Shown here one piece after another: positions 2,271 through 55,576 of a stretch of 64,000 bases of DNA (the first letter of the stretch is position 1; each line of letters opens with the position of its first letter). Made by a program: the position numbers and the translations under genes. This DNA is from a virus, in the IMG/VR virus record IMGVR_UViG_3300028393_000040, positions 1 through 64,000 of that record. One strand, given 5' to 3'. The notes beneath the pieces are model-generated. The model saw only the letters and a list, made by a program, of their open reading frames with translations, ran no database searches and was not told the DNA's origin.

Positions 2271-5200
2271 TTAACTTGTTAAATCACCAAATACAACCCA
2301 TTGAGATCCAGTATAAAGTAAAGTTGCCGCAGAATATGGTACGGCAGTTTTATTAAATCCATATGCATGATTAACTGTTGTGTTATAACCAGAAAGATAA
2401 ATTTGACCACTACCAAGTTGTAAAAGTGTTGTTTGGAATCCTGATGGGTAGTTTGTCCCATTAACAATAGCAGTTAACATTGAACTATTTGTCGATGCAA
2501 TTATACCACCTGTATCACTATTTTTAATCTCATAACGAGTTCCGCTTTGGGTATTTATGGAATTTTGAATTATTAAAACTCCACTTACAACTAAGTTTTC
2601 AACAAAAGTTGTATTGTTTTGTGTAGCTGTAATACCAGAACCTAATATGTTTACATTTTTAAAACTATTATCTTTGTTATTACAACCGCCTAGGATAACT
2701 GAATAGTTTCCTGAAGCTGTATTACATTTGCCACCGCCAATAAAAGAATAACATCCAGAAACTGTGTTACGTGCACCACCTACTATAGAGTTTCCTACTA
2801 CATAAGTACCAGTATAACCTAAACAATTACAAAAACCTCCACCGATAAAATTACTATCAGTTCTGTAATAGTCGATAGTGTTACAGTATCCTCCAACAAT
2901 AGCACTATTACAAGCTTTATTAGTGTTATTACAACCACCTACAATAATAGAATAACACGTTGATAAACCACCTCCCCCAATAATGTTATTATAGCCTGAA
3001 CCAATAAAACTAAAAAATGTATAACCGCTCATCGAATTAGCAGAACCTGAAACTACTGTTGTATTACATCCTTTTCCTATACTATTTGAAGATCCATTAC
3101 CTATAAAAGCACAATTATTTCCATATATTGCATTATTATACCCACCTGTAATAACAGCATATTGAGGCACACCAGCAGAGCCAGCAGCAATAACATTACA
3201 ACCCAAAACGGGTGCTATAGCACCTATATAAGCATCCGTATAAGCGCATACGTAACAATAAGGAGAGTTTGCTATAGGGCCGACAATATTATTAGCATAA
3301 ATTGTACCGATTGTACTAAGATTATTAACATATGTAAAGTTAGCTTGAGAGGCGTTTAAGTTAGATCCTAAAATAAATGTATTAGCAAATCCTTTTGTAT
3401 CATTACAACAACCACCAGCAATAAAATTATATTTACCAGAAATATTATTATTATATCCATTAATTACACTTGAGTAATCTGCTTGTTCATAAATACCATT
3501 AATAGTATTACAAGATCCGTTACCAATAAAAACTTTGTTACCATTGTTGGTAACGTTACGTTCACCACCAACAATAGTTGTATATGTGCTGTTACAAATA
3601 GCTGAATTACATTTTCCATTACCGATAAATGAATTGTTTGAACCGTTACAAATGCAATTTAAGAAACCACCAGCTATAGTTGAACAAACTGATGCATCTA
3701 TAAGATTGTTAGAACCCCCATTTATGTTACTATAATTAGTATTTATGGTATTTTGCTTTCCACCACTTATATTCGCATAACCAATATAGTTACAAATACA
3801 ATTATTAGAACCACCTAATATTGATGAATTGTAACCAGAAATTGTATTACTGTTTCCACCGCCTATAAAACTATAATGGTTAGTACCTACTGCATTTATT
3901 GCATTTGCACATCCTGTAACTATACCTGAACTACATGAAGCATTAGAAATGATATTATTGCACCCACCAAGAATAACCGAATAATTTGAAGCAGTATCTG
4001 TTATTGAATTTGAACCACTTAAGAAAATAACAGATGCTGCTGTGTTTGGTGCATATCCATATATACTATTAGCTGCTACAACTGAACCTAATCCCGTGAT
4101 ACGAGAACCATCACCGTAAAATCCACCTGTTGCGCAGATTGTAGCACCACAAACAGAGGTTGTTCCGCAGATTTTTGGTGAACTAACCATTGTTGAACTA
4201 CAAATATTATTTGATGCACAAACATAACCCGTTGAACAAACTAATCCCGTACAAACAGAAGTTGTACCACAAATATTATTACCGCCTATATTGCCAGTTG
4301 CGCATACATTACCAGTTGAGCAAACTAATCCTGTACAAACTGAATTTAAAGCGCACAGATAATTTCCACACATGCTACCACCACAAACTGTTGGAGCACA
4401 CACACAATTTCCACCATAGACATTTGATCCACAAACGTTACCCTGTGAACAAATGTTATTTACATATGTATAATTTGCAGTTGGTGCAGTTATGTTGCAA
4501 CCTAAAATAAAAGTGTAATCCTTGTTGTTTGTATTATTAGCACTACCAGCTGCAATAAAAGAATAGCGACCAGATGAAGAATTATAACCACTTACTGGTT
4601 GAATGGAACTATTTGCTCCATATTTATATATACTGTTAGCAGCAATAATATTTCCTAATCCTGTTAACCCTGAACCGTTTCCATAAAAACCACCCGTTGC
4701 GCAAATTGTGTTACCACACACGGATGTTGATCCACAGATGGAAGGTGAGCAAACACTTGTTGAACCGCAGATGGAAGGTGAGCAAATTGTTGTTGCTCCA
4801 CAAATATTATTACCACAAAGATTACTTGAGGCGCAAATATTTCCACCATAAACGGAATTTGATCCACAAATAGAAGGTGAACATACAGAGGATTGACCAC
4901 AAATATTATATCCAAATATCGAACCTGTTGAGCAAACGTTACCAGAGCATACATTATTGGTTGCACATAAAAGTTGTGTGCATACGCTATTTGTTGCACA
5001 TAAACTTATACCACAAATTGCATTCTGTGAGGAAAGATTATTAACATATGTATAATTTGGAGTGGTTGCTGTTATGTTACAACCTAATATAAATGCATAT
5101 GCTGCTCCGTTTACATTGTTTGCAGAACCACCAACTATAGTTGAATATAACCCAGAATTTGTATTAAATCCACTAATTGGTAAAATTGATCCAGTAACAG

Positions 5201-5999
5201 TACCTGTTTTATAAACTGAATTGGCAGCAACTATATTATTAAGACCAGTGATGTTTGAACCATCACCATATAAAACACCACAAACACTTTTTCCACAAAT
5301 TGTAGAACCACAAACATAACCTTGTGAACTAATATTGTTTACATAGGTATAGTTTGCAGCAGGTGATGTTATATTGCAACCTAAAATAAATGTATTATTA
5401 TATGATGTATAGTTTGCACTACCAGCAGCAATAAATGAATTAATACCAGTATTACAGTTTGAACAACCTCCTACTATTGTTGCTCCTGTATTACATGCTG
5501 AATTACGGGAACCACCCCCCACAAAAGATCCTGTACCATATGTACTATTTGAATTACCACCAACAATTGTTGATTGTTGACCACAATTGCAATTGCATTT
5601 ACCACCACCAATAAACCCCTGAGAACATCTTGTTATGTTACAACAACCACCAACAATAGCACTACTTATACCGTTTACGTTATTACAATATCCTCCAGAT
5701 ATGGTTGTATAAACATTATTTGCATTATTGCAACTTCCACCACCAACATGTGCACAACTTGCTAATGCGTTGTTACAAGTTCCACCACCCAGAGTGGCAT
5801 AACTACCAGAAATAGTATTGTTTCCACTTACTGCAACGATACCAGTTTGACCGTTTCCATCATATTTATATGGTGAAGTACCACCACCGCCACCTCCAGA
5901 GTTTGGTACATTTGTTAAATATGATGCATCTCCATATATAAAACCAACAGAACTGATTGTTCCTGTAACTGTTAAATTATCTAAAAGGTTAATTGACAT
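2271..5999 (-). CDS. Giant cysteine-rich beta-roll tail fibre
   Basis: A 1242-residue fibre made of YadA/Hep_Hag-like beta-roll repeats (GGG-x-CNN-xxxx-S-x-I-x-GG) interrupted by four GDGS/GDAS-x-(L/I)TGL-type linkers and several FILG-xN...NYTYVNN cassettes. I count about 80 cysteines (roughly 6-7%), far above normal. They occur in two settings: next to the GG of the beta-roll, and in 11-residue ladders such as CSPSICGSTSV (33-bp DNA repeats near 4734-4800). The C-terminal 100 residues (TRYEIKNSDTGG to WVVFGDL) look like a fibre-tip or trimerisation domain. A GATAAATA octamer lies 10-17 bp upstream of the start. It is probably trimeric and host-binding; whether the cysteines form disulfides or bind metal is unknown. 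Confidence 0.8.
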   Translation of the reverse strand: MSINLLDNLTVTGTISSVGFIYGDASYLTNVPNSGGGGGGTSPYKYDGNGQTGIVAVSGNNTISGSYATLGGGTCNNALASCAHVGGGSCNNANNVYTTISGGYCNNVNGISSAIVGGCCNITRCSQGFIGGGKCNCNCGQQSTIVGGNSNSTYGTGSFVGGGSRNSACNTGATIVGGCSNCNTGINSFIAAGSANYTSYNNTFILGCNITSPAANYTYVNNISSQGYVCGSTICGKSVCGVLYGDGSNITGLNNIVAANSVYKTGTVTGSILPISGFNTNSGLYSTIVGGSANNVNGAAYAFILGCNITATTPNYTYVNNLSSQNAICGISLCATNSVCTQLLCATNNVCSGNVCSTGSIFGYNICGQSSVCSPSICGSNSVYGGNICASSNLCGNNICGATTICSPSICGSTSVCSPSICGSTSVCGNTICATGGFYGNGSGLTGLGNIIAANSIYKYGANSSIQPVSGYNSSSGRYSFIAAGSANNTNNKDYTFILGCNITAPTANYTYVNNICSQGNVCGSNVYGGNCVCAPTVCGGSMCGNYLCALNSVCTGLVCSTGNVCATGNIGGNNICGTTSVCTGLVCSTGYVCASNNICSSTMVSSPKICGTTSVCGATICATGGFYGDGSRITGLGSVVAANSIYGYAPNTAASVIFLSGSNSITDTASNYSVILGGCNNIISNASCSSGIVTGCANAINAVGTNHYSFIGGGNSNTISGYNSSILGGSNNCICNYIGYANISGGKQNTINTNYSNINGGSNNLIDASVCSTIAGGFLNCICNGSNNSFIGNGKCNSAICNSTYTTIVGGERNVTNNGNKVFIGNGSCNTINGIYEQADYSSVINGYNNNISGKYNFIAGGCCNDTKGFANTFILGSNLNASQANFTYVNNLSTIGTIYANNIVGPIANSPYCYVCAYTDAYIGAIAPVLGCNVIAAGSAGVPQYAVITGGYNNAIYGNNCAFIGNGSSNSIGKGCNTTVVSGSANSMSGYTFFSFIGSGYNNIIGGGGLSTCYSIIVGGCNNTNKACNSAIVGGYCNTIDYYRTDSNFIGGGFCNCLGYTGTYVVGNSIVGGARNTVSGCYSFIGGGKCNTASGNYSVILGGCNNKDNSFKNVNILGSGITATQNNTTFVENLVVSGVLIIQNSINTQSGTRYEIKNSDTGGIIASTNSSMLTAIVNGTNYPSGFQTTLLQLGSGQIYLSGYNTTVNHAYGFNKTAVPYSAATLLYTGSQWVVFGDLTS

Positions 6000-6008
6000 A
6001 TTATTATA

Positions 6009-6016
6009 TATTTATC
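6009..6016 (-). promoter_or_regulatory. Late-like octamer GATAAATA
   Basis: Predicted start of transcription 4 nt before the ATG of the Cys-rich fibre gene. Confidence 0.55.
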
Positions 6017-8633
6017 CCATTACAACAATTCTATAAGAGTTTGTACTTGGGGCTACATTGAAAGAAAGACTGACAGTTGTTGTGCTGATATTTGCTATTG
6101 TTGGCATCACTACCACATAGCTTCCATTATTACTATAAACTTGTGTAATAACATCTTGAGTTCCTAAGTTATGTTGAAAGTTAAATACACTATTATAATT
6201 GTCACCAATTGATGTTACTGCTTTTTTAACAGTTCCTGATCCACCATTAATGTTACCTCCACTAAATGCACTTGCAGCGAAGAAGACGTTTGCATAAACA
6301 TTTCCAGTTGCGCTAATGTCTCCAACAATTGTTAATGTTTTTATTGGTGTTTGTGTTCCGACACCAATATTACCACCAGAAGTAATAGATAAGATAGAAT
6401 TATTACCGATACCGTTATTATAAATACTAATCCCATCATTAGCACCAACGCTAATTCTTCCTTTACCTGTAACGTAATCTATTACAATGCCATCATTATA
6501 TGTTGATGAATATGCACTATTTGCTAAGAATCCAGTATTAGAATTTATTAAATTTCCATAAACCGAATTAGCAGAAACATTACCATAAAGATTTCCATAA
6601 ATTGAATTAGCAGAAACATTACCATAAAAATTTCCGTAAATTGAATTAGCAGAAACATTACCATAAAGGTTACCATAAAGGTTACCATAAAGATTACCAA
6701 GAGAACTTAAATTATTTACATAAGTTAAGTTTGTTTGACTTGCAATAATGTTACTTCCCAAAATAAACGTGTTATCAACCCCATTTATGTTATTGCCCGT
6801 ACCAGCGGCAATAAATGAATATTGACCAGATCCAACATTTGATCCACTAACGGGAATTATACTTCCACTAAGACTTCCATATTTATAGGGAATGTTTCCT
6901 GCTAAAGTTGCAAACAAGTTTGTTAATCCTGAACCATCACCTGTAAATTTTGCACCAATAAAATTATTTGCATAAACACTATCTTGGGAACTTATGTTGT
7001 TAACATATGTGAAGTTTGACTGTGATGCTGACAAGTTAGACCCAAGAATAAATGTGTTTGGTAAAACCGTATAGTTTGAGCTACCTGCTGCAACATATGA
7101 ATATAATCCACTTGATGTGTTATTGAATCCACCACCAACAACAGAAAAACTATTGCAAGCATTATTAAAGCAACCTCCACCAATTGTTGAAAAACAACCA
7201 CTGCTGTTATTGCACGATCCGCCATTTACAACGGAAAATTTTCCATAAGATGTATTGATACCACTTACTGGCATTATAGATGATGGAAGATTTCCAATTC
7301 TATATGGGCTTCCACTGACCGTAGTTGTTAACCCTGTTAAGTTTGAAGCATCTCCGTAAAATATACCAGATATGTTTACTCCATAAATAGAACCTTGAGA
7401 ACTTAAATTGTTTACGATAGTAAAATTGTTAAGATTGGTAGTAATATTGGAACCAATCGCAAAGGTATTAGTTCCAGAAACCGAATTGTTTCTACCACCT
7501 AATATACCAGAATAATTAGAATATGTTAAGTTTCCAGTTCCTCCACCTATGACAGAATATTTTCCTTGTCCGTTATTACTCAATCCACCACCGACAACTG
7601 CGTATAATCCATTGGTTTCATTGTATTCACCTCCACCAATTGTTGAAAAGTTTGCAGAAGTTTGTGTAATATTACCAACACCACCATCAATGTTTGAGTA
7701 TAATGCATTGGCAACGTTACTGTTACCACCACCAATATTTGCTCCTGCTGCACTTGCTAAATTTGAACCACTAACAGGAATAATTGATGCAACACCAACA
7801 CCATATTTATAAACTAAATAATTTGAATTTGTTCCACCCGTACTTTTTATGTTACCGTAAATATTTCCAGCATAAATGTCACCATTTGTGCTAAGGTTAT
7901 TAACGTAAGTAAAATTAGCAGATAATGCATTGAGCTTTGAACCCAATATAAATACATTGTTATAGTTGCAGGTGTTATTGTTACATCCACCAGCAATAAA
8001 GGAACAGGCACTATTAATGGTATTAGAATAACCACCACCTATAACCGAATAGCAATTTGAAAGGGTATTGTGACATCCACCAAGAATAGCTGATCTACAC
8101 CCTAATACACAATTACTCATTCCACCCGCAATAGTGGAATCATAACCAGATAGATTTATGTAATTTGTATTACCTCCGTTAATTACTGAACCCGGACCGT
8201 AATTACAATTATTATGTCCACCTGTTATTGTAGCGTAAAAACCAGATGCCGTATTGCAAGTTCCACCAACAATTATATTAGTGGAATTGTAATTTTTGTT
8301 ACAGCTACCCCCAAGTATACTTGCATAATTAACGGTAGTATTATTACAACCTACATTTAAATTGTTAGCAACGTAAACTGTTCCATTTTGGATGTATAAA
8401 TTATTAGAACCTGTTACTGCTCTTGACGAAAGATAAGAAGTATTTGTTGCTAAGACAGGAAAATAATATGGTACGGTTGCCTGTGTTGTTGCAGTTCCAG
8501 TAGGATACCCCAAACTAGGTTCAACAGAGTCTAAACTTATAAAATTATATTGATAAGAGTTTCTCTGTAAATCTGTTGCAGTTAAAGATTTTAACTGAAC
8601 TAAGTTACCTATTGTTTGATGGTAGGACTGCAT
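6012..8633 (-). CDS. Beta-roll tail fibre protein
   Basis: An 873-residue fibre. Residues about 95-270 are Cys-containing YadA-like beta-roll repeats (GGSCNKNYN, GGTCNTASGFYATITGG); further beta-roll blocks follow, separated by FILGS...FTYVNN cassettes and FYGDASNLTGL/FTGDGSGLTNL linkers. A 13-residue repeat (YGN-L/F-YGNVSANS-I/V) occurs near residues 645-695. NIGVGTQTPIKTLTIVGD is the element often found just before fibre C-terminal domains. The last 75 residues (FQHNLGTQDVITQVY to SYRIVVMG) match a C-terminal domain common in aquatic phage fibres. It lies in the same operon as the Cys-rich fibre, with a 12-bp gap. Cysteines cluster in the N-terminal half, so this is a hybrid of Cys-rich and ordinary beta-roll. 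Confidence 0.8.
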   Translation of the reverse strand: MQSYHQTIGNLVQLKSLTATDLQRNSYQYNFISLDSVEPSLGYPTGTATTQATVPYYFPVLATNTSYLSSRAVTGSNNLYIQNGTVYVANNLNVGCNNTTVNYASILGGSCNKNYNSTNIIVGGTCNTASGFYATITGGHNNCNYGPGSVINGGNTNYINLSGYDSTIAGGMSNCVLGCRSAILGGCHNTLSNCYSVIGGGYSNTINSACSFIAGGCNNNTCNYNNVFILGSKLNALSANFTYVNNLSTNGDIYAGNIYGNIKSTGGTNSNYLVYKYGVGVASIIPVSGSNLASAAGANIGGGNSNVANALYSNIDGGVGNITQTSANFSTIGGGEYNETNGLYAVVGGGLSNNGQGKYSVIGGGTGNLTYSNYSGILGGRNNSVSGTNTFAIGSNITTNLNNFTIVNNLSSQGSIYGVNISGIFYGDASNLTGLTTTVSGSPYRIGNLPSSIMPVSGINTSYGKFSVVNGGSCNNSSGCFSTIGGGCFNNACNSFSVVGGGFNNTSSGLYSYVAAGSSNYTVLPNTFILGSNLSASQSNFTYVNNISSQDSVYANNFIGAKFTGDGSGLTNLFATLAGNIPYKYGSLSGSIIPVSGSNVGSGQYSFIAAGTGNNINGVDNTFILGSNIIASQTNLTYVNNLSSLGNLYGNLYGNLYGNVSANSIYGNFYGNVSANSIYGNLYGNVSANSVYGNLINSNTGFLANSAYSSTYNDGIVIDYVTGKGRISVGANDGISIYNNGIGNNSILSITSGGNIGVGTQTPIKTLTIVGDISATGNVYANVFFAASAFSGGNINGGSGTVKKAVTSIGDNYNSVFNFQHNLGTQDVITQVYSNNGSYVVVMPTIANISTTTVSLSFNVAPSTNSYRIVVMG
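6551..6698 (-). repeat. Tandem 39-bp coding repeat in fibre gene
   Basis: Three copies of a 39-bp unit encode YGN-L/F-YGNVSANS-I/V, followed by partial YGNL units. The copies differ by single bases. Confidence 0.75.
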
Positions 8634-12115: not shown

Positions 12116-15100
12116 TTAGATGTTATAAATGCGGGTTGGAAGATAATAATAACCATTAGTGTTACCAAGACCCAATTCTCCGTTTGCATTAGTTCCACAA
12201 CCATAAACCTTTCCACTCTGGGTTATAATTACTAATGTATATTGATATTTATAACCTCTGCCATTATATGATATCCTTGCGGCTTTTTCATTATAAGGTA
12301 ATCTAACCTTTGTAAACGATGTAACATTAGCAACCGTACTTGATTGCGCACCTGCGCCTTGGTTGTCTGTATTATCACCAGCTGTCCAAACCGATCCGTC
12401 ACTTAATAATAGTGCAGATGAAGAACCACACATAATTATTTCAACAACTGTACAATCGTTTAATGGATTACCTGTCGTATAACCTTCCGTAACAGTAAAA
12501 ATAACCGAAGATGGTGAAAATTGACCAGTTGTAGATGATGTACCATTACTTAGTTGACCTTGATCATTATACCCCCAACTATATAATTTATTACCTGAAG
12601 TATAGGCTATAGCTGATCCCTTTAATCCCGCTGAATAACTTGCTTGAAATAATGTTACTGGATTTGTGTCTGGAATTGTTATTTTTGATGCATAATTAAG
12701 GCTTTTTACAGTAGTACCCAATCCTAATTCGCCAGATGCTCCGTTTCCACTTGCCCAAAGACTTCCATCATTCAGTAGGAAGTATGTTGTTGCCAGTGGT
12801 GAACCGCCAAGATTTCCGTTATCAGCGACATATATTCTATTTATACCATATAACATTTTGTCATATAATCCTGATAATACTGGAGCAAATGTTGCTTGAG
12901 TGGTGCCACCAATTGTAATGCCGTTTGCTAATGCACCATTGCCGTTCCACCCTGCTCCATATGCTGTACCATCATTTTTTAAAACAAAACTTATAATACT
13001 ACCTGCATATACATCTTTAAACATTAATGAAGGAGTTGTTACGGTTCCAGAATTTGCTTTATAATTGAATGCTGGATATGCTGATATTGCTTTTGTGCTA
13101 CCTGCACAATATTGTGGAGTATAATTTACAGCGGAAGGTGAATACACCACACTTAAATTATTAAGTCCACACTGTCCATTTGTATTAAATCCCCATGTGT
13201 ATATTGTTCCATCAGTTGCTAAAGCAATACAATGAATTTTTTCGGAACTTGCATTTGTAGTTACATCAGTTGGTAATGGAGTAGATGCAAATTTTATAAT
13301 TTGAGTACTAAGATTAGTTGTAAATGTTATTTTATCAAGTTTACTAGAATAAGTTAAAGAATCAAAAGCTTTACCCAATCCAAGTTGATTTACTGAATTA
13401 GATCCAGCTGCATGTAAATTTCCTAAACTATCTAAAACATATGTGTTGTAGGAACTTCTCCACATTTCAACAGGTCTATATGACGGTAATGATAAACTAC
13501 ATGTTGTGGGGGTAAGATAATTAATTGCAGTAGCGATTGAATATCCGTTTGGTACACTTCCTAAAGTACCATATCCCGACATGTATAAACTTCCATCATC
13601 ATATAAAATTCCAATATTATTAACGGATTCACGAGCTTTTGCGCTAAATGTTGCTCTGATATCTGCCATTCCGTAAGCATTATAACCAATATCTAAAACA
13701 CCATTATTGTACACATAAACTCTTGGATGAGTAGTATAACCAAATCCTGCATCGGTTATTTTAATTGATAAAAGGTTACCCGAACCATCTACAACAGGAA
13801 TTGCAGTTGCCTGACGATTATTAGAACCTAATGGATATGTTGGTGCATCAATTATAACCGTTGGATTTATTAATGACACTGCACCTCTAGTACCAACAAC
13901 AATGTTTCTAACCGAACCACTAATTACTGGTAAAGGTGGTGTAGCAAATGCTGTTACCCTGTTAACATAGGTATAAGTTTGATTCCAATTTGAACTCAAT
14001 GTTAAAACGTTAGAATAAACCGAATTCCAATTTGCACTTAATTTATTAACATTTAAATAAACCGAACTATTAGCAGGTGTATTGCCACCCCATGTACTAA
14101 TAATGGTATATCCAGTATAACCTTGTTGCCAACCACTACTTAAATTTGATACTGAAGTGTAAGCAGCAACACCTTCTAGTGCTGCTTCACCTGGATTCCA
14201 GCTTTGATAATTGTCATGGACAAGTTTATTTATGTATAAATTATCGGCAGACTGTTGAGCAAACGTTGCATACACATTATTCCAATTTGCACTTAACTTA
14301 TTAACGTTTGTGTAATTGGAATTCCATGCAATACTATTTCCCCCGTTTACAATAATATTGCCATATGAACTAATGTTTCCATTTATTGTTAGAATATTAT
14401 TACTGGTTGGTGTTAATCCCCCAATTACAACATTTCCACTGTTATCAATTATAAATGGAGATGAATCGTTAGCTTGATCATCGACTCGGAACGAGTCGCC
14501 AGTTCCCATTTGAGTTATTCTCAGTGCTTCAAAATTAGTGTTTGCGTAAACTGATGCATTATTAGCAGATAGAATATTTGTTGAAATACTAACTTGTGAA
14601 CTTAAATTGTTAACATATGTAAAATTAGCTTTTGAAGCTGTAAGATTAGAACCAAATATAAAAGTATTAGGCTGTAAATTTGTATTATTGAGAATACCAC
14701 CCCCAATAAATGAATGATAACCAGATGCAATGTTTTCTCTTCCGTTTACTACAGTGGAATAAGCAGATAATGCTGAGTTAGCTCGTCCACCCAGTGTACT
14801 GGAATAATATCCATTTGCTATATTAGAATTTCCAATTGCTGTTGCATATTGACCACCTGCTAAATTATTAGCACCTATGATATTTGAAGTATTAATGCTT
14901 GAGTTATTAGGTCCTATGGTAAGATTACCCATTGCACTTATTGAACCAATAACAGTTAAAGCAACATTTGGTGTTGCTGTTCCGATACCCACGTTGCCAC
15001 CTATAAAGGCAGCTGCATATGCACTGGTGGATGGGACAACTGCGCTTAATGCTCCTGTTAAGACGAAATCGCCTCTAAAGGGGTTATCATAACTAGCAAT

Positions 15101-15187
15101 TGGATCGTGACCTGCATCAGGATTTGATGCATTTGGATACGTGTGGTGGTTTGCTCTGTGGAATTTTGAATGGAATCTATTTGACAT
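12116..15187 (-). CDS. Beta-roll / coiled-coil / RCC1-repeat fusion fibre
   Basis: A 1023-residue mosaic. Residues about 65-190 are YadA-like beta-roll repeats preceded by NVGIGTATPNVALTVIG and followed by a FIFGSNLTASKANFTYVNN cassette. Residues about 270-440 contain scattered copies of the 14-residue NSVYSNV-x-x-LS-x-NW coiled-coil unit that dominates the fibre at 38965-41367. Residues about 500-1020 hold about eight RCC1-type repeats (for example IYTWGFNTNGQCGLN, LYSWGYNDQGQLSNG, VYGCGTNANGELGLG), enough for a seven-bladed propeller. RCC1 propellers bind proteins or chromatin in eukaryotes; here a receptor-binding head on a stalk is the natural reading. The leader is about 60 nt, with GATAAATA at 15256-15263 and a weak GAGAA upstream of the ATG. 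Confidence 0.75.
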   Translation of the reverse strand: MSNRFHSKFHRANHHTYPNASNPDAGHDPIASYDNPFRGDFVLTGALSAVVPSTSAYAAAFIGGNVGIGTATPNVALTVIGSISAMGNLTIGPNNSSINTSNIIGANNLAGGQYATAIGNSNIANGYYSSTLGGRANSALSAYSTVVNGRENIASGYHSFIGGGILNNTNLQPNTFIFGSNLTASKANFTYVNNLSSQVSISTNILSANNASVYANTNFEALRITQMGTGDSFRVDDQANDSSPFIIDNSGNVVIGGLTPTSNNILTINGNISSYGNIIVNGGNSIAWNSNYTNVNKLSANWNNVYATFAQQSADNLYINKLVHDNYQSWNPGEAALEGVAAYTSVSNLSSGWQQGYTGYTIISTWGGNTPANSSVYLNVNKLSANWNSVYSNVLTLSSNWNQTYTYVNRVTAFATPPLPVISGSVRNIVVGTRGAVSLINPTVIIDAPTYPLGSNNRQATAIPVVDGSGNLLSIKITDAGFGYTTHPRVYVYNNGVLDIGYNAYGMADIRATFSAKARESVNNIGILYDDGSLYMSGYGTLGSVPNGYSIATAINYLTPTTCSLSLPSYRPVEMWRSSYNTYVLDSLGNLHAAGSNSVNQLGLGKAFDSLTYSSKLDKITFTTNLSTQIIKFASTPLPTDVTTNASSEKIHCIALATDGTIYTWGFNTNGQCGLNNLSVVYSPSAVNYTPQYCAGSTKAISAYPAFNYKANSGTVTTPSLMFKDVYAGSIISFVLKNDGTAYGAGWNGNGALANGITIGGTTQATFAPVLSGLYDKMLYGINRIYVADNGNLGGSPLATTYFLLNDGSLWASGNGASGELGLGTTVKSLNYASKITIPDTNPVTLFQASYSAGLKGSAIAYTSGNKLYSWGYNDQGQLSNGTSSTTGQFSPSSVIFTVTEGYTTGNPLNDCTVVEIIMCGSSSALLLSDGSVWTAGDNTDNQGAGAQSSTVANVTSFTKVRLPYNEKAARISYNGRGYKYQYTLVIITQSGKVYGCGTNANGELGLGNTNGYYYLPTRIYNI

Positions 15188-35003: not shown

Positions 35004-35792
35004 TTAGATTAAAGCATCCCAAAATATTTGACTGTTATACTGTTGATATAAATCTAAACCTATGTATTCAACACAATTTGTTGTGGTTTTTTCTAATTGT
35101 GGTTTAACCTTGTGTAGGTTTGGTAAATCGGTTGCCAAGTCATTATAAACTTCTGTTTGTTGAATTTGTTGAAAATTGTGTTCAAACTTTGGAAGTTCAA
35201 AAAAGTTATAAATTCTTTTAAGTTGTGATTTTGGATTATTACAAAATAGATTGTAATCCACAAAAAGTAAACGATCTTCATATCCTGTTATAAGTGCATC
35301 TTTTAACATTGCATGACTTAGTCCAAGGATACCATCAGGGGAAGAATAATACATTGCTCTGGCTGCAACTGTATTTGCACCGTTTAATTCGGGTGCAACT
35401 AATTTTGTTGGATTATCTTTCCTTATTCGTTCAAATGATGATAGAATCTCTGCTGGATTTCTAACTGGGCATAAGATTTTCACTTTTTGTTGAAGTAAAT
35501 TTTCCAAAAGTGGGATTTTTGAAATCCACATTCTATCTTTATCAAATATAATATCCTTTGTGGATGTTTTGTGATAACTTTCAAGAATGCCCTTTAAAAC
35601 GTTTAAACGAGCGTATTCATTGGGATATTCTCTATTTGCTTCAATATTATTCCAATTGCTTTGTACTGCATTTAAAACTGATGCAAGTGAACTTACTGAA
35701 ACACCATCAACTTTAGTATTTTGTTTTAAAATGTTTATCATCATTGTTGCACCGCTTCTTGGTAATCCAGCAACAAAATGTAAAGTCTTCAT
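35004..35792 (-). CDS. Sulfotransferase (PAPS-dependent, P-loop type)
   Basis: 262 residues with the two cofactor motifs of the sulfotransferase family: the 5'-phosphosulfate loop at the N-terminus (FVAGLPRSGATMMINILKQN, residues 6-25) and the 3'-phosphate motif VKILCPVRNPAEILSSFERI in mid-protein. The C-terminal part (LLFVDYNLFCNNPKSQLKRI) matches the usual helix that follows. It would move sulfate from PAPS to a sugar or tyrosine; the acceptor is unknown. It follows the TPR-glycosyltransferase with a 4-bp gap, so sugar addition and sulfation may act on one target. An ATTAAGTT octamer lies inside the end of the upstream gene. Confidence 0.8.
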   Translation of the reverse strand: MKTLHFVAGLPRSGATMMINILKQNTKVDGVSVSSLASVLNAVQSNWNNIEANREYPNEYARLNVLKGILESYHKTSTKDIIFDKDRMWISKIPLLENLLQQKVKILCPVRNPAEILSSFERIRKDNPTKLVAPELNGANTVAARAMYYSSPDGILGLSHAMLKDALITGYEDRLLFVDYNLFCNNPKSQLKRIYNFFELPKFEHNFQQIQQTEVYNDLATDLPNLHKVKPQLEKTTTNCVEYIGLDLYQQYNSQIFWDALI

Positions 35793-44242: not shown

Positions 44243-45178
44243 ATGGACAAATACGTAATTTTTCACATTGATGGTGGTTGTGGTAAAAATATTGTTGCTA
44301 CTGCTGTAGTAAAATCAATTAAAGCTGCTTATCCAGATCATAAACTTATAGTTGTAACAGCATGGCCCGATGTATTTGCACATAATCCAAATATTCATAG
44401 AGTTTATAGGTTTGGAAATATTCCTTATTTTTATGAGGATTATATAGATAATAAAGAGTCTGTTATTTTAAGATCAGAACCATATCATTCTGGTGACTTA
44501 CTATATAAAAGAAAATCATTAACTGAAATTTGGTGTGACGTATTTAATATTCCATGTATTGATAAAAAACCAGAAATTTTCTTAGCCGAAAGAGAATTAT
44601 TATTTGCAGAAAATCAATTACAAAAGCAAGGACCTATCTTATTGATACAATCATCTGGTGGTGCAGAGCAACAAGGTCATCCTTATTCTTGGTCAAGAGA
44701 TTTACCACCCGTTTTTGCTCAAGAAATAGTTAATTCTGTAAAAGATAAATTTAATAAAATTCTCCATGTACGAAGAGATAATCAGCCCGAATTACAAAAT
44801 ACAATAAAACTTACTGACGGTTTTAGAAATTTATTTTGCTACATTGCTCATTCTGATAAAATATTGGGAATTGATTCTTTTGTTCAACATGCTGCTGCTG
44901 CATTTAATAAAAAAGCAACAGTTGGATGGATTTCAAATTCCCCCGTTGTGTTTGGTCATGAAATACACGATAACATCTTAGCATCTGGCGCAAAATCATT
45001 TAGACATCGAATAGATTCATACTTAGAAGAAGAAGATTGGACGGGTGGAAAATTTCATGAATGTCCATATGACAATATCAATAATCTTTTTGATAAGGAT
45101 CAGTTTATTGAATCTCTTTTGGGATCAAAAAATGATTTAGTTTTTGACTTTGCCGATCAACCAAAAATTGTATTTTAA
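44243..45178 (+). CDS. GT9-like glycosyltransferase
   Basis: 311 residues with a heptosyltransferase-like GT-B fold: an N-terminal strand-loop-helix (FHIDGGCGKNIVATAVVKSI), then AAYPDHKLIVVTAWPDVFAH and NIHRVYRFG, and a C-terminal donor-site region (FCYIAHSDKILGIDSFVQHA, AAAFNKKATVGWISNSPVVF). GT9 enzymes add heptose or related sugars to lipopolysaccharide cores; in phages the target may be host glycans or virion proteins. It is the first gene of the plus-strand arm of the accessory island, divergent from gp20. A GATAAATT octamer precedes the ATG, giving a predicted leader of about one nucleotide. Confidence 0.7.
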   Translation: MDKYVIFHIDGGCGKNIVATAVVKSIKAAYPDHKLIVVTAWPDVFAHNPNIHRVYRFGNIPYFYEDYIDNKESVILRSEPYHSGDLLYKRKSLTEIWCDVFNIPCIDKKPEIFLAERELLFAENQLQKQGPILLIQSSGGAEQQGHPYSWSRDLPPVFAQEIVNSVKDKFNKILHVRRDNQPELQNTIKLTDGFRNLFCYIAHSDKILGIDSFVQHAAAAFNKKATVGWISNSPVVFGHEIHDNILASGAKSFRHRIDSYLEEEDWTGGKFHECPYDNINNLFDKDQFIESLLGSKNDLVFDFADQPKIVF

Positions 45179-45801
45179 TTGATATTTGATTCATATTGTT
45201 TATCTTGAATAATAGAATTAAATGGGAATAGTGGCTTTACGATATATCTTCCTTCTAAATTATAATTGTAACTCATATGCTGCATGATTTTTGCATAGAA
45301 ATTATCTATTTCCATTCCTGATGCTTCCGCCATATAAATAATGTCATCAAAAACCTTTTTGGAAATTGCATACGAATGTGTTGTTACTATTTGATTTCTG
45401 AACATTGATTCGATCAACCCACCAAAATACAAAAAATCCCAATCCTTGTTTAAGGTTTCCTGATTATTTAGAAGAACTTCATTAGGATCGTTTAAGAATT
45501 TTATATCATCTTCAAATATAAGAATCTTCTTGTATGAATTTGTTTTTGCATCATTTACAATATTTAAATGAGATGATCTACAACCTAATGCACCAAGAAC
45601 ATACTTTGTGTCTTGCTTGTTAAAATTTCTAAACAAACTAAAACTTGGTGGTAATTGATTATAAGATGTTGCTGATATCCTTTGAAAATTTTTTATATTA
45701 AAGGTTTTAAATTGATTTAAAATATTTTCGTTGCGTTGTTTATCATTATCTAAATTAATGTAATAAATTTTATCGAAATATGTATCTATTAAAGATTTCA
45801 T
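45175..45801 (-). CDS. GT25-family glycosyltransferase
   Basis: 208 residues. The GT25 (LPS-biosynthesis LgtB/LgtF-like) pattern is clear: KIYYINLDNDKQRNENILNQ at the N-terminus, FQRISATSYN, GALGCRSSHLNIVNDAKTN, and the E-D-D metal/nucleotide motif in YKKILIFEDDIKFLNDP, followed by DWDFLYFGGLI and HSYAISKKVFDDI. It transfers a hexose onto a glycan. It is convergent with the GT9-like gene (4-bp overlap) and divergent from the sulfotransferase at 45878, so it is likely to have its own promoter. Confidence 0.8.
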   Translation of the reverse strand: MKSLIDTYFDKIYYINLDNDKQRNENILNQFKTFNIKNFQRISATSYNQLPPSFSLFRNFNKQDTKYVLGALGCRSSHLNIVNDAKTNSYKKILIFEDDIKFLNDPNEVLLNNQETLNKDWDFLYFGGLIESMFRNQIVTTHSYAISKKVFDDIIYMAEASGMEIDNFYAKIMQHMSYNYNLEGRYIVKPLFPFNSIIQDKQYESNIN

Positions 45802-45877
45802 ACTTTTATCATAACGTATTATGGATACATGTCAAATAGAACTTGATTTACTTGGTTTACATGTTAAATTTATAATA

Positions 45878-46702
45878 ATGAAAAACATATTTTTTAATTC
45901 TTCCATGCCTCGTAGCATGAGTACATTGTTTCAATGTATATTGAATCAAAATCCAGAGATAAATGCAACCCAAACCGATCCAGTTTTAGAGTATCTATAC
46001 GGCGCAAGAATGAATTATACTTCAACGCTTGAAGTTAAAGCAATGAATGATGATTTAGCAAAAAAGACATGGAGAGGTTTTTGTTGGGGTGGATTAGAAG
46101 GATATGCTAATTCTTATACAGACAAACCAAATATTTGTATCAAGACTCGTGGAGGAACAATTCATTATCGTTGGTTTGAATCCTTTATGCCATACAAACC
46201 CAAAATGATTTGTATGGTAAGAAATTTAAAAAGTATTTTTTCTTCTATGGAAAAAATCTACAGAAATAGTCAAGAATATCATCAGGCTATACAGAATCAT
46301 TCGGAAATGAAAGGAACTTCTACTGCCAAGAGAATTGATGCTTGGATTGCTTCGCCACCTGTTGGATTAGCATTGGAGAGACTTCAACAAACTTTCTTAG
46401 AGGGAATCAACAAAGAAGTTTTATATATTAGAGCAGAAGACTTAACCAGTTATCCTGATAGAGAGATGGATAAAGTTTATCAGTATCTTAATTTAGAAAC
46501 TTTTAAACACGACTTCGATAATGTTGAACAGACTATTAAGGAAGATGATTCAGTTTATGGTTTAACTTCTGATCTTCATACTATTAAACGTAAAGTTCAA
46601 CCTTTATCTGCTGATTATAATAATATTTTAGGAAAGCAAGTTTGTGATTGGATTGATAACAATTTTGCTTGGTATCAGCAAGGATTTGGCTATACTAAAT
46701 AA
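45878..46702 (+). CDS. Sulfotransferase (P-loop type)
   Basis: 274 residues from the ATG at 45878. The 5'-phosphosulfate loop is right at the N-terminus (IFFNSSMPRSMSTLFQCILN), the 3'-phosphate motif is PKMICMVRNLKSIFSSMEKI near residue 110, and a family helix EVLYIRAEDLTSYPDREMDK follows. An upstream ATG at 45821 would add 19 residues before the P-loop and is less likely. It is of the same broad group as the 35004-35792 enzyme, but only the motifs align well by eye. The radical SAM gene begins 4 bp after its stop, suggesting one transcript. Confidence 0.8.
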   Translation: MKNIFFNSSMPRSMSTLFQCILNQNPEINATQTDPVLEYLYGARMNYTSTLEVKAMNDDLAKKTWRGFCWGGLEGYANSYTDKPNICIKTRGGTIHYRWFESFMPYKPKMICMVRNLKSIFSSMEKIYRNSQEYHQAIQNHSEMKGTSTAKRIDAWIASPPVGLALERLQQTFLEGINKEVLYIRAEDLTSYPDREMDKVYQYLNLETFKHDFDNVEQTIKEDDSVYGLTSDLHTIKRKVQPLSADYNNILGKQVCDWIDNNFAWYQQGFGYTK

Positions 46703-46706
46703 TTAT

Positions 46707-47702
46707 ATGTACAATGTAACAGACATAAGGGACATACACATTGAATTAACTAGTAAATGTAATGCTAGATGTCCAATGTGTTCTCGCACACGTTTAATTC
46801 AGTCTGGTAAAGAAGATTTATTACGAGATGAAATAACATTAGAATTATTTAAAAAATGGTTTTCTGTGGATTTTGTTAAGCAATTAACAGGATTAAGAAT
46901 GTGTGGTAATTTAGGAGATGCTGTTATGGCAAAGGATACAGTTGAAGTTTTTCAATATTTGAGAGAAAACAATTCGAATATGAATCTTAAATTGTTTACA
47001 AACGGAGGAGCAAGAGATGATAATTGGTGGAAAAAACTTGCAGAAACTAACGTCGAAGTTATTTTTGCTATTGATGGTTTAGAAGATACAAACAAACTTT
47101 ATAGAGTTAATACTGTTTGGGAAAAAATTATGCACAATGCAAAAGTTTTTATTGATGCTGGTGGAACTGCTTCTTGGTATATGCTTGTTTTTAAACACAA
47201 CGAACATCAAGTAGATGAATGTAGAGCATTAGCTTATAGTATGGGTTTTAAAAAATTTGATCCAAAACATTCCAATCGTTTTGGATCTGGATCTGGTTTA
47301 GCTGTATATGATAGTGATGGTGTTTATACGCATACAATAGAGCCTACAACATATAGTTTAAATATAAAGGATAAAGAAAAAAAGATTAATACTGGCAACA
47401 ATATTGATTGTAAATCTTTAAGGAAAAAAAGTATATATGTAGCAGCAAGTGGAATTATAACTCCATGTTGTTGGACTGAATTATCTAAAAAAGCAATGCA
47501 TGATAAACGTAAAGAATATGAAAACAAAATTGGTTCTTATTACAGTTTACATGATTACACTTTAGAAGAAATTCTCAACAAAGATTCATTCAATAATATT
47601 GCAAAATTATGGACAAACGAACCTTTATCTATTTGCAGTAGTCAGTGTGGTAATTTTAAAAAATGTGAATCACAATTTATTGAAAGAGTCTCAAACTCTT
47701 AA
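46707..47702 (+). CDS. Radical SAM enzyme with SPASM-like C-terminus
   Basis: 331 residues from the ATG at 46707. The radical SAM cluster motif is C-x3-C-x2-C at Cys18, Cys22 and Cys25 (ELTSKCNARCPMCSRT). Later glycine motifs (MCGNLGDAVMAKD) and VEVIFAIDGLEDTNKLYRVN are as in the family. The C-terminal part has extra cysteines in a SPASM-like pattern (GIITPCCWTEL, LSICSSQCGNFKKCESQF), which would hold one or two auxiliary Fe-S clusters. SPASM enzymes modify peptides or proteins, and some act on sugars. Substrate unknown. The stop overlaps the convergent 83-residue gene by 4 bp. An ATG upstream at 46644 lies inside the sulfotransferase and was rejected. Confidence 0.82.
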   Translation: MYNVTDIRDIHIELTSKCNARCPMCSRTRLIQSGKEDLLRDEITLELFKKWFSVDFVKQLTGLRMCGNLGDAVMAKDTVEVFQYLRENNSNMNLKLFTNGGARDDNWWKKLAETNVEVIFAIDGLEDTNKLYRVNTVWEKIMHNAKVFIDAGGTASWYMLVFKHNEHQVDECRALAYSMGFKKFDPKHSNRFGSGSGLAVYDSDGVYTHTIEPTTYSLNIKDKEKKINTGNNIDCKSLRKKSIYVAASGIITPCCWTELSKKAMHDKRKEYENKIGSYYSLHDYTLEEILNKDSFNNIAKLWTNEPLSICSSQCGNFKKCESQFIERVSNS

Positions 47703-47950: not shown

Positions 47951-47956
47951 ATATAC

Positions 47957-47964
47957 TATTTATA
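47957..47964 (-). promoter_or_regulatory. Late promoter octamer TATAAATA
   Basis: Before the 83-residue gene; predicted leader 1 nt. Confidence 0.6.
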
Positions 47965-47981
47965 CAATTTTTGTTTAATTG

Positions 47982-48701: not shown

Positions 48702-48704
48702 TTA

Positions 48705-50534: not shown

Positions 50535-52217
50535 TTAAGCGGCTCCCAAACCTACTGGATTACCACTTGTATCAACTCCTACTTTCCATCTTTTACCTGT
50601 GGAGTCTTTTAATACTATTATAGATGGTGTATTTGTTACTTCAAGACTATTAATATATGTATAGTTAGCTGATAATGCTGTTATATTAGATCCTAAAACA
50701 AATGAATTATCCAAACCTAAATTAATACAATTGTTTGAACCCGCTGCAATAAATGAGCAGTTTGATCCTATATAGTTGCCTTGACCACCAGCTATAACAG
50801 AACTACGAGTAGTTAAACCATAATCATTACCATAAGGATAAGTGACACCATTACCTTTATTATACAAAAATGTAATTTCTGCTTCGGATAATGGTCTGTA
50901 CCATATTCCAAGTTCATCCATTTTAACACCATTTGCAGACGATGCATATGAACCATCTGGCTGCGCAAGTACACCATATATATTTGTATAATTTGTATTA
51001 TCTATTTTATGTCCAATATAAACTCCATTTCGATACATACGTACTCTACCATTAACATCTCTAGTAAGAGTAGCCATAGTCCAAGCGTTTGTTGGGCTGC
51101 CTATAATAACATTTAAACGATAATATGCATTTGGAACACCATAATACATACAATTATAATTTACATTAAAGTTTAATGATCCGTAGCCTTGTCCAGAAAA
51201 TTGTTGAATATTTGAATTGTAAGTAGGAATTGTCCAATAATTAATTGTAAATTCTCCAGAAAGATTAACAGTACTGGTTGTAGATAACCATCCAGTAGTG
51301 TTACCTATAATACCATTTCCAATACGACCTGTTGTAGATGAAATTGTATTATGTTGTATTAAATGATTAGATCCAATTGAATTATTTCTTGTTCCAGTTC
51401 CTGATTCATCAAGTTTCCAATAAGAAGTAAGATTCTGGTTTGGTATAGCTACAGTATTAGAAACACCACCCCCAATAAATGAAGAATATCCTGAATTTGT
51501 GTTACGTATACCTGAAGCAATATATGATTCAGCTTCGTATATAACATTACCACAACCACTACCAATACCAGACCACCAACCAGCATTTAAAATACGATTT
51601 CTATCTCCACCCCCAATACTTGCACAATTTTGTGATAATGTATTATTTTCTCCACCATTTATTGTTGAACTCCTACTATTAATACAAATTTTATTACCAT
51701 AACCACCAGCTACATTAGAGTATAAACCACCAATATCAATATTATTATTATTACCACCACCTACATTAGAGTATAAACCAGAAACTGTATTACCATAACC
51801 ACCTGCAATAACAGATCTATTAGCAAATACTTTATTATAGGCACCTCCCCCTATAGCGGCACTATCTCCAGTAACACAATTACCAAGACCACCTGCAATA
51901 CTAGTAAAATTATAATTAGCACAATTACTACAACCACCTACAACATTAGATGCTACTCCTGTAGCTTGATTGTTACTACCACCACCGACAAATGAATAAA
52001 CAGCAGAAGCTGTATTATTACCTCTTTTGGGTCGTATAGAGCTTGTAGAATCAATTAATGTATAAGGCTGAGACGATACAGATTGATAAGCTGTATCCCA
52101 TTGATTACTATTACCACCAGTTATAGAAGTAGCAGAAACAGAATTAAATACAGCACTGCTTAAACCAGTAACAGTATTATTAAATTGAAATGGTTGTGTT
52201 TCTATCTGTAAAGACAT
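50535..52217 (-). CDS. Beta-roll tail fibre with inserted LamG lectin domain
   Basis: 560 residues. Residues about 60-260 are Cys- and Gly-containing beta-roll repeats (GGGSNNQATGVASNVVGGCS, GGGYGNKI-type). At about residue 262 the repeats stop and a complete LamG-like domain is inserted (YWKLDESGTGTRNNSIGS, GEFTINYWTIP, GRVRMYRNGVYIG, closing with MDELGIWYRPLSEAEITFLY). At about residue 465 the beta-roll resumes (RSSVIAGGQGNYIGSN), then the FVLGSNITALSANYTYINS cassette and a short C-terminus ending KDSTGKRWKVGVDTSGN. The N-terminal SYNTAYQSVSSQPYTLIDS-type stretch is shared with the fibre at 52946-55576. Likely receptor-binding. Confidence 0.8.
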   Translation of the reverse strand: MSLQIETQPFQFNNTVTGLSSAVFNSVSATSITGGNSNQWDTAYQSVSSQPYTLIDSTSSIRPKRGNNTASAVYSFVGGGSNNQATGVASNVVGGCSNCANYNFTSIAGGLGNCVTGDSAAIGGGAYNKVFANRSVIAGGYGNTVSGLYSNVGGGNNNNIDIGGLYSNVAGGYGNKICINSRSSTINGGENNTLSQNCASIGGGDRNRILNAGWWSGIGSGCGNVIYEAESYIASGIRNTNSGYSSFIGGGVSNTVAIPNQNLTSYWKLDESGTGTRNNSIGSNHLIQHNTISSTTGRIGNGIIGNTTGWLSTTSTVNLSGEFTINYWTIPTYNSNIQQFSGQGYGSLNFNVNYNCMYYGVPNAYYRLNVIIGSPTNAWTMATLTRDVNGRVRMYRNGVYIGHKIDNTNYTNIYGVLAQPDGSYASSANGVKMDELGIWYRPLSEAEITFLYNKGNGVTYPYGNDYGLTTRSSVIAGGQGNYIGSNCSFIAAGSNNCINLGLDNSFVLGSNITALSANYTYINSLEVTNTPSIIVLKDSTGKRWKVGVDTSGNPVGLGAA

Positions 52218-52945: not shown

Positions 52946-55576
52946 TTATAATGTATAGTCCCAAAGTTGAATTGCTTTATTAGTTCCATTTACATTTATT
53001 ATTAAAAATGTACCAGATGCAGTTACTGGATTAGTAAATGTAGTAGGTGCAGATGTTATATTTAATGCACTAGCATAGATTGTGTTTGTAGCACTAATAT
53101 TACCAGAAACTGTTAATTTTGCATTTGGTGTTGTTGTTCCAATACCTACATTTCCATTAGCTGATATAAATACCGTAGATGTATTACCTATACCTTTGTT
53201 ATAAAAAGATAAAGATTCATTGCCAACACTTATACGCCCTAATCCACTTGTGTAATCTACAATTAAACCTGTTGTAAATAAATTTGTATAACCACCATTT
53301 GTAAAAAAACCTTTAAAGGCAGTAATAGAACCTCCTGCTCCTATACTATTATTATCGACAAGTCCTGCACCTAAATTTATATTATTAGCGAATAAAGTAT
53401 TTGTAGCACTAATATTACCAGAAACTGTTAATTTTGTATTTGGTGTTGTTGTTCCAATACCTAAATTACCAGATGAGTTAATTCTCATTCTTTCATTGGT
53501 GTTTAACGTACCACCAGTAAAAAATGTTAAATTGCTTGTACTTGCTGCTGCTCCTAATACAAGATTGGCACTTGTTGAATAAACATATGAATCTCCTGCA
53601 TTAACTACATTAAATGTAGGACTATATAAATTACCATTATATTTTGTACTTGCTATACCTAAATCCAAATAGTTAATATTATCGTCATTATAGAGAGAAA
53701 TATCGGTACTTGAACTAACACTTGGTGTTATATTTTGAATCTGATTAAATACTGATCCACTAGCCGAAGAAATAATAGTAAGAGGTGCAGAGTTTAATGT
53801 TGCAATACTAGCAGTTGATCCAAATTGAGCAACGGGAGAAGCCACTATACCTTGAGAAGAAATATTATTAACAAATGTATAATTATTTGCACTTACTGAA
53901 ATATTAGAACCTAAAATAAAATTGTTTGTTCCGCTTAAAGCATTATTTTTTCCATTTAATATAGTATTATAGTTTCCGCAAATTTTATTATTACATCCAT
54001 TTATAATTGAACTAAAATTACTACACGTTGAAGAATTACCGTAACAAGATTGAATACAGTTACGAGATCCATTTAAAATTGTATTGTAACTTGAATATGT
54101 ATCGGTATTGTATGTATATGAAAGATTTTTATTTGTAATACAATTAGCAGATCCATTTATAATGGAATTATTTATAAATGCTCCACCAGCTTGATAATAA
54201 CAAGAATTATTATTATAATAACCAGAACCAGTACCAAGTATACTATTACCATATCCGCTTATATTACTATAAGTAATACTACTTGTTGAATATGGTGTTG
54301 CAGCACCGCCACTTCCTACAGATGATATAATTGATGTTGCAAGAATTGTATTAAGAGTTCCATTTATTACTGTATTATAATTTGTGCATCCTAGTGTGCC
54401 ATTACCTGTATAATTTCTATTACCATTTAAAATAGAATTATAACCTGCACTTATAGTACTATTATCACTAAGTGAATTAAGATATGGTAAAATAGATGGT
54501 TGACTAATATATCCACCAATAGAACCACAATGTTTATAAAATTGTGTAATATTTGATATGTTACTACCTCTACAAGTAAAATTATCTGTAGTTAAATTTT
54601 TTGCACATACACTAGCACCCGAAATATTTCCCATACCTACACCACCAGCAGACAAATTGTTTACATATGTAGTACAATCACAAGAGGCTTTAATGCTATT
54701 ACCCAATATAAAAACATTAGTTTTATTATTTGTATTATTACTATAACCACCTAATACTACCGAATAACCTCCAGAAGCTGTATTGTCTTTTCCAGTACCA
54801 ATAAAATTATAATTATTTGTAACACAATTATTACATCCGCTACCAATAAAAGAATAATCACTTACTATACATCCAGAAAAACCACCAACAATTGATGAAT
54901 AATTTCCTGCAATATTATTACGACAACCAGTTCCTATAAAATTATTTGCTATTTTTATATAACCACTATTAGATGCATTTGGAGCACCACTATAATTTGG
55001 TGTAAGAATTTGTGGTTGTTGAGAAATACAATTTTTATAACCATTTAAAATTGTGTTTGAACAAACTACCGAACAACCAATAATTGGGTTGGTCGTGCAA
55101 TTACCGTTATCATAATAATCAGATGCAGCAGCACATGCTTTAATAAAATTACAACAACCACCAGCAATAATATTATTATTTAAAATATTTGGGGGTGTAC
55201 CATAACTTATTAATGAATAACTTCCGCTATATGTGCAAGTTGCAGATATAGAACTATTGTATGAATTTAAAATAGTATTGCAACTATCATTAATAGTATT
55301 ATTTATACCATTACCTATAAAATTATAAGAACTTAGTGCTCTATTATTAGATCCGCCTAGAACAGTAGACCAATTTCCAGATGCTATGTTATTACCTATT
55401 TTTAATACTATAGATGATGTAGAGGAAATTAAAGTATAAGGCTGAGTAGATAGAGACCTATATGCAGTATTCCATTGACTACTATTACCACTTATATCAT
55501 AAAACAAATTACTGGTTGAAACATTACCAGTAACTGTTAGGTCATTTTTAGTCTTAAATGATACGTTGATAGCCAT
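52946..55576 (-). CDS. Cys-containing beta-roll tail fibre
   Basis: 876 residues. It starts with AINVSFKTKNDLTVTGNVST and an AYRSLSTQPYTLISSTSS element shared with the fibre at 50535-52217. Long beta-roll regions with N-x-I-x-N-G/GG-C-N-N repeats (Cys-rich but irregular) fill residues about 65-590, with two FILGN/FILGS...TYVNN cassettes. Residues about 680-875 hold two copies of the element GNLGIGTTTPNTKLTVSGNI / GNVGIGTTTPNAKLTVSGNI with ISATNT, flanking a GLIVDYTSGLGRISVGNESL segment. There is no intramolecular-chaperone triad that I can identify. Octamer ATTAAGTA before the start. Confidence 0.8.
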   Translation of the reverse strand: MAINVSFKTKNDLTVTGNVSTSNLFYDISGNSSQWNTAYRSLSTQPYTLISSTSSIVLKIGNNIASGNWSTVLGGSNNRALSSYNFIGNGINNTINDSCNTILNSYNSSISATCTYSGSYSLISYGTPPNILNNNIIAGGCCNFIKACAAASDYYDNGNCTTNPIIGCSVVCSNTILNGYKNCISQQPQILTPNYSGAPNASNSGYIKIANNFIGTGCRNNIAGNYSSIVGGFSGCIVSDYSFIGSGCNNCVTNNYNFIGTGKDNTASGGYSVVLGGYSNNTNNKTNVFILGNSIKASCDCTTYVNNLSAGGVGMGNISGASVCAKNLTTDNFTCRGSNISNITQFYKHCGSIGGYISQPSILPYLNSLSDNSTISAGYNSILNGNRNYTGNGTLGCTNYNTVINGTLNTILATSIISSVGSGGAATPYSTSSITYSNISGYGNSILGTGSGYYNNNSCYYQAGGAFINNSIINGSANCITNKNLSYTYNTDTYSSYNTILNGSRNCIQSCYGNSSTCSNFSSIINGCNNKICGNYNTILNGKNNALSGTNNFILGSNISVSANNYTFVNNISSQGIVASPVAQFGSTASIATLNSAPLTIISSASGSVFNQIQNITPSVSSSTDISLYNDDNINYLDLGIASTKYNGNLYSPTFNVVNAGDSYVYSTSANLVLGAAASTSNLTFFTGGTLNTNERMRINSSGNLGIGTTTPNTKLTVSGNISATNTLFANNINLGAGLVDNNSIGAGGSITAFKGFFTNGGYTNLFTTGLIVDYTSGLGRISVGNESLSFYNKGIGNTSTVFISANGNVGIGTTTPNAKLTVSGNISATNTIYASALNITSAPTTFTNPVTASGTFLIINVNGTNKAIQLWDYTL

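Follow-up and report, generated by a model that had tools for sequence, protein, structure and literature searches.

Cysteine is generally scarce on the surface of secreted and virion proteins. One open reading frame in the stretch of viral DNA analyzed here (the window, 64 kb in length, part of an 82,451-base IMG/VR virus record) encodes a tail fibre with 6.6% of this residue (61 TGT and 21 TGC codons), and the locus thus raises the question of what so many thiols do along the shaft of a phage fibre. The sequence-only reading of this DNA had estimated about 80 cysteines, in agreement with the 82 counted in 1242 amino acids, and had proposed that they could form disulfide, thioether, or metal-binding ladders in a trimeric beta-roll.

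Source Record and Architecture of the Fibre Protein

The T4-type portal, major head, and baseplate wedge proteins were matched in the record (phrog_213, phrog_138, and phrog_219), the portal being about 30% identical to cyanophage gp20, and the open reading frames near the 2271-5999 gene match phage tail families. According to these portal, head, baseplate, and tail-fibre similarities the phage belongs among divergent T4-like myoviruses. A second IMG/VR contig is a near-identical copy and carries the same gene, while a whole-protein tblastn search against the phage collection gave no matches, for which the low-complexity filter is possibly responsible. Another contig (L113), binned in an uncultured Chitinophagaceae metagenome-assembled genome, contains a 2187-aa frame of a Cys-rich roll fibre with 74 Cys; this binning is only a hint of a Chitinophagaceae host, as the bin may be wrong. 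The tail region of the window also includes a large open reading frame (12116-15187) matching PHROGs named regulator of chromosome condensation (RCC1-like repeats). The 82-kb record, possibly incomplete, contained no match to the reverse transcriptase family RVT_1, which was sought as a mark of a diversity-generating retroelement.

The repeats divide the protein into four beta-roll stretches and three ladder stalks of 5/6-residue steps, followed by a Cys-free C-terminal region (Table 1). The stalks, 282 residues in total, hold 39 of the cysteines and the remaining 43 lie elsewhere, with none in residues 1-70 and 1130-1242. Tandem Repeats Finder at score 40 detected no array inside the open reading frame, and recent DNA duplication is therefore not the explanation of the cysteine repeats.

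Table 1: Features of the window, with positions counted from its first letter (LPBR, left-handed parallel beta-roll; AF2, AlphaFold2).
Feature	Position	Strand	Basis or remark
Cys-rich tail-fibre shaft protein, 1242 aa, 82 Cys	2271..5999	(-)	open reading frame
LPBR roll 1, residues 60-215, mostly 15-residue layers; Cys after GG and at other predicted outward columns	5355..5822	(-)	AF2, Foldseek 3pr7
Ladder stalk 1, residues 225-258, YVCGSTICGKSVCGVLYGDGSNITGL	5226..5327	(-)	repeat pattern
Short roll 2, residues 262-321, FILG...NYTYVNN junction	5037..5216	(-)	layer pattern
Ladder stalk 2, residues 322-450, 11-residue double steps [VIL]C-x3-[VIL]C-x4, end FYGNGSGLTGL	4650..5036	(-)	repeat pattern
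Short roll 3, residues 451-515	4455..4649	(-)	layer pattern
Ladder stalk 3, residues 516-640, end FYGDGSRITGL	4080..4454	(-)	repeat pattern
Long roll 4, residues 641-1125, Cys-bearing LPBR layers	2625..4079	(-)	layer pattern
C-terminal tip region, Cys-free from residue 1130	2271..2624	(-)	Cys count
Paralogous LPBR fibre, 15 Cys, 1.7%	6012..8633	(-)	Cys count, layer pattern
Paralogous LPBR fibre, 9 Cys, 1.6%	50535..52217	(-)	Cys count, layer pattern
Paralogous LPBR fibre, 26 Cys, 3.0%	52946..55576	(-)	Cys count, layer pattern
Sulfotransferase-family matches	35004, 45821, 48705		above Pfam cut-off
Sulfotransferase-family match	47982		below Pfam cut-off
GT25 glycosyltransferase	45175		next to second fibre cluster
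Radical SAM/SPASM protein	46644-47702		next to second fibre cluster

Beta-Roll Fold and Ladder Stalks

Several approaches assigned the roll to a known fold. In phmmer the protein matched the UspA1 head 3PR7 with an E value of 1.2e-18, and a profile built from the alignment of 32 related segments reached 1.4e-38 for 3pr7 and 5.1e-15 for 3ntn. AlphaFold2 supplied with the same 32-segment alignment predicted roll 1 with pLDDT of about 98, and Foldseek search with this model returned 3PR7 as the top match (TMq 0.71, rmsd 2.1), while the matches in the viral library came mostly from uncultured Caudovirales, with some from giant viruses. The layers are mostly 15 residues long with conserved GG and Asn, as expected for this type. 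Thus, by profile and model, the roll is a UspA1-type LPBR, and the earlier proposal of a beta-roll of trimer-forming type agrees with the profile match, the AlphaFold2 model, and Foldseek; the shaft protein is presumably a homotrimer, the AlphaFold2 predictions being those of monomers only. Stacking of same-column residues between neighboring layers, also proposed, holds for this fold, where the layer rise is 4.8 A (PMC9543794). A trimeric autotransporter adhesin was considered and rejected: no Pfam match, and hence none to a C-terminal YadA membrane anchor, was obtained for the protein at E 0.1, and the neighboring open reading frames match phage tail families.

The 5-6-residue spacing of cysteine in the ladders, noticed from the sequence, is real by repeat pattern: the steps consist of 5 or 6 residues in the order hydrophobic-Cys-small and terminate in FYGDGSxLTGL. 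The slots between the large hydrophobic and the small residue are occupied by Cys in 37 of 54 cases and by Tyr in 5. The ladder of locus L011 mixes both residues, and short Cys/Tyr ladders were found by pattern search in L015 and L011, while the ladder-like stretches of the 6012-8633 paralog have Tyr (IYGN/LYGN) where the 2271-5999 ladders have Cys. Because the ladder position accepts Tyr, its outward orientation is more likely, and the exchange of Cys for Tyr argues against an interior disulfide. The only relative obtained in a ladder-only search was the near-identical contig, the ladder sequence had no match in PDB, and single-sequence AlphaFold2 of residues 40-480 gave a mean pLDDT of 38, with about 25-35 in the ladders. 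At the DNA level the YGN ladder of the 6012-8633 fibre is encoded by 39-base and 12-base tandem repeats (window 6552-6699).

Position of Cysteine in the Roll Layers

For comparison of layers the columns of the 15-residue unit were numbered from the residue preceding Ile/Val of the GG strand. Three viral-contig scans and one genome-contig scan gave about 100 loci, from which a set of 73 distinct fibre open reading frames of IMG/VR phages with 600 regular layers was obtained. In these layers the cysteine content of columns 5, 6, 8, 10, 12, and 13 was 13.2, 19.0, 12.2, 7.0, 9.2, and 7.8%, respectively, that is, 7-19% of each of the six, compared with 3.3% at column 11 and 0-0.2% at the remaining ones. 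The layer-finding pattern leaves no room for Cys at columns 1-4 or 7; in 71 pattern-failing layers, located by spacing, no Cys was observed at columns 1, 2, 3, 4, 7, and 9, and one each at columns 0 and 14. At columns 5 and 6, directly after GG, Cys is the commonest residue of the phage layers. The earlier reading put a cysteine behind every GG, but only 14 of the 31 recognized layers of the 2271-5999 protein have it there, at one or both of the two post-GG positions, and further Cys occur at four other alternate columns.

In the BpaC structure positions 2 and 10 lie outside, and the core of the trimer contains positions 5 and 7 (PMC9543794); these four correspond to columns 12, 6, 0, and 2 of the phage layer register. 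Columns 8, 10, and 13 would face outward as well, since they alternate with the Asn and Ala columns that point inward. We infer from this that the six Cys-bearing roll columns are exposed to solvent; the core columns are essentially Cys-free.

Cysteine across Phage Fibres and Bacterial Rolls

Homologs with the same cysteine column pattern, whose search the earlier reading had suggested, were found across the 73 fibre open reading frames, where the cysteine content ranges from 0 to 6.6% with the 2271-5999 protein as the highest, and the trait is common to dozens of related uncultured phages. The weaker enrichment reported for the fibres at 6012, 50535, and 52946 was likewise confirmed (Table 1); the last of them also had a weak Pfam LbR_Ice_bind match, under the family cut-off. 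In contrast to the phage layers, those of bacterial rolls of this type had 0% Cys at all six columns in a sample of 159 layers from the class to which the Chitinophagaceae genome of L113 belongs (Fisher p 5e-5 to 3e-13 per column, a calculation that counts layers as independent although related repeats are not). The codon-based neutral expectation for Cys is 2.9-3.7% versus 31 of 162 exposed codons in 2271-5999, and this excess together with the Cys-free bacterial columns excludes chance.

Family-wide, Cys constitutes 0.62% of the first 50 residues, 0.85% of the last 100, and 2.48% between them; the surplus belongs to the shaft rather than to the ends. The pooled content of 271 non-roll open reading frames of related loci was 1.17%. 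Cysteine content shows no clustering by genome (p 0.30); fibres within one genome contain from 0.2 to 3.7% Cys and in another from 1.6 to 5.3%. A genome- or habitat-level cysteine habit is thus unsupported, as fibres of the same genome differ widely and the other open reading frames are ordinary.

Pairing and Conservation of the Roll Cysteines

The pairing of cysteines was tested by shuffling them within columns and proteins. Same-layer pairs were not in excess overall over the shuffle, while pairs in neighboring layers (lag-1) numbered 403 against 354 expected (p 0.003). The same-column lag-1 ratio was 1.26 for Cys, 1.17 for Ser, 1.20 for Tyr, and 1.26 for Gly; such an excess is what local similarity of repeats would give, and this other-residue control explains the lag-1 Cys excess for same-column stacking only. 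Among 168 tests, nominal excesses were seen for Cys at column 8 in successive layers (26 vs 15.6 expected at lag 1) and at columns 8 and 10 of one layer (19 vs 11.7), while columns 6 and 10 of one layer carried fewer than expected (6 vs 14.4). An earlier pairing test on fewer fibres had shown no coupling at all and is superseded by the larger set.

In 12 related fibre pairs (90 directed Cys comparisons) exposed Cys was kept in 49% of cases versus 53% for all exposed residues, being most often replaced by Ser, Asn, and Thr. The free replacement of Cys by Asn/Ser in homologs, named beforehand as evidence against functional ladders, was therefore found in the roll, and disulfide, thioether, or metal ladders there are unsupported: the cysteines occupy columns predicted to face solvent and stack as Ser, Tyr, and Gly do, without same-layer excess and with free replacement. 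A Cys-ladder (paired) beta-solenoid was rejected for the roll, where Cys is neither conserved nor coupled between layers. The density of cysteine, and not particular pairs, persists, and the roll does not behave as one with fixed pairs.

Possible Explanations of the Cysteine Surplus

The explanation that we hold to be right with a little better than even probability is that of a T4-like tail-fibre shaft whose uncharged and fast-changing outer surface favors cysteine, each residue being individually dispensable and without fixed pairs. The shaft consists of UspA1-type LPBR layers and short ladder stalks, presumably as a homotrimer. The fold fixes the core columns (Ile/Val, Gly, Asn, Ala), while the predicted solvent-facing columns are free to change; in these phages they carry few charges and hold chiefly Asn, Ser, Thr, Tyr, and Cys. 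The outside of the shaft would then offer a nearly uncharged surface for contacts, rich in thiols, on which disulfides would arise only incidentally, if at all, at places where two cysteines chance to stack, and the Cys surplus would reflect a favored surface composition. As neutral codons give about 3% Cys, relaxed constraint is by itself insufficient. It is accordingly improbable that Cys is merely tolerated on exposed columns by drift or habitat, for example, in hosts living in reducing water: individual cysteines do turn over freely, and a single base substitution separates their codons from those of Ser, Tyr, Gly, and Phe, but Cys reaches 2-6 times the neutral expectation and prevails at columns 5 and 6. 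The wide differences between same-genome fibres and the ordinary Cys content of other open reading frames of the loci speak against this explanation as well. A less likely alternative to the favored surface, though the one deserving most attention among the rest, is oxidative stapling, where the fibre would keep its thiols reduced while folding in the cytoplasm of the host and be stiffened after lysis by disulfides between stacked or neighboring cysteines; many different pairs could serve, hence no single pair would be conserved. Consistent with this are the 25 of 32 regular-layer roll cysteines of 2271-5999 with a Cys neighbor at an adjacent column or layer, the 4.8 A rise, the total lag-1 pairs above the shuffle, and the Cys at every 5-6 residues of the stalks. 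However, 7 of the 32 have no in-chain neighbor, Ser, Tyr, and Gly match the same-column excess, same-layer pairs show no overall excess, and exposed Cys is replaced as freely as other residues. In addition, a search of 28 records for glutaredoxin gave a single match, below the curated cut-off, and the search for sulfhydryl oxidase was uninformative, because no control genome matched either.

It is also doubtful that the outward cysteines, including those of outer-strand CxC/CxCxC, serve along the shaft as binding sites for soft metals or for other ligands of thiols. Such motifs are present (KCNCNCG, NCICN) and columns 8 and 10 co-occur in one layer, but columns 6 and 10 are under-paired, and there is no fixed site, individual Cys turning over freely. 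The least probable proposal, to which we attach very little weight, is enzymatic modification of the fibre, perhaps on Cys, by the radical SAM/SPASM protein, sulfotransferases, and glycosyltransferase of the phage, whose genes adjoin the second fibre cluster. Another radical-SAM phage, represented by the near-identical records L072/L073, has a fibre with 6.0% Cys, but radical SAM occurred in only 3 of 50 virus records searched and is absent from L022, a 199-kb record with 4-5% Cys fibres, which rules it out as a requirement for Cys-rich fibres. Sulfotransferases as a rule act on hydroxyls or amines, which was also counted against Cys modification.

The sulfotransferase-family, GT25, and radical SAM genes form a cluster in the window (44243-49559 with 35004-35792), for which a role in virion or surface modification is possible. 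L072 and L073 contain two radical SAM matches each, the 6.0% fibre being that of L072, and this co-occurrence in them and in the phage of the window may be due to chance.

Comparison with Known Systems and Significance

The phage roll resembles the UspA1 head of Moraxella catarrhalis (PDB 3PR7) in its 15-residue layer, the extra Gly after the conserved one, and the GGxxN turn, and differs from it in lacking a matched autotransporter anchor, in its location in a tail-fibre gene region, and in Cys-rich outer columns, ladder stalks, and few charges. The YadA/BpaC-type heads of trimeric autotransporter adhesins share the left-handed parallel beta-roll and variable solvent-facing columns (PMC9543794), while they have 14-residue layers and charged surface residues, and Cys was not noted at these columns. 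The nearest viral fold matches are LbR/YadA-like BFVD proteins of uncultured Caudovirales (for example, A0A6J5PYS3 and A0A6J7X9E5) with 32-35% identity.

The disulfide-laddered antifreeze beta-helix of the insect Tenebrio has a short repeat with two Cys per turn. The 11-residue unit of the phage ladder is reminiscent of this turn, but has no PDB sequence match and admits Tyr in place of Cys. In the open-access literature searched, no report matching Cys-rich or LPBR phage fibres was found, a CASP16 review merely mentioning these terms.

In summary, cysteine is the commonest residue at two predicted outward columns of the fibres of dozens of phages and is absent from the same columns of the sampled bacterial rolls. 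There is a slight chance that in this large group of uncultured phages the thiols, dense along the fibre shaft whatever their exact positions, have a chemical role: they could undergo thiol-disulfide exchange with proteins on the host surface or be bridged by soft metals, and in that case adhesion would be partly covalent or metal-dependent. The finding thus raises the question of why it pays a phage to keep its fibre shaft rich in thiols when no single one of them matters.
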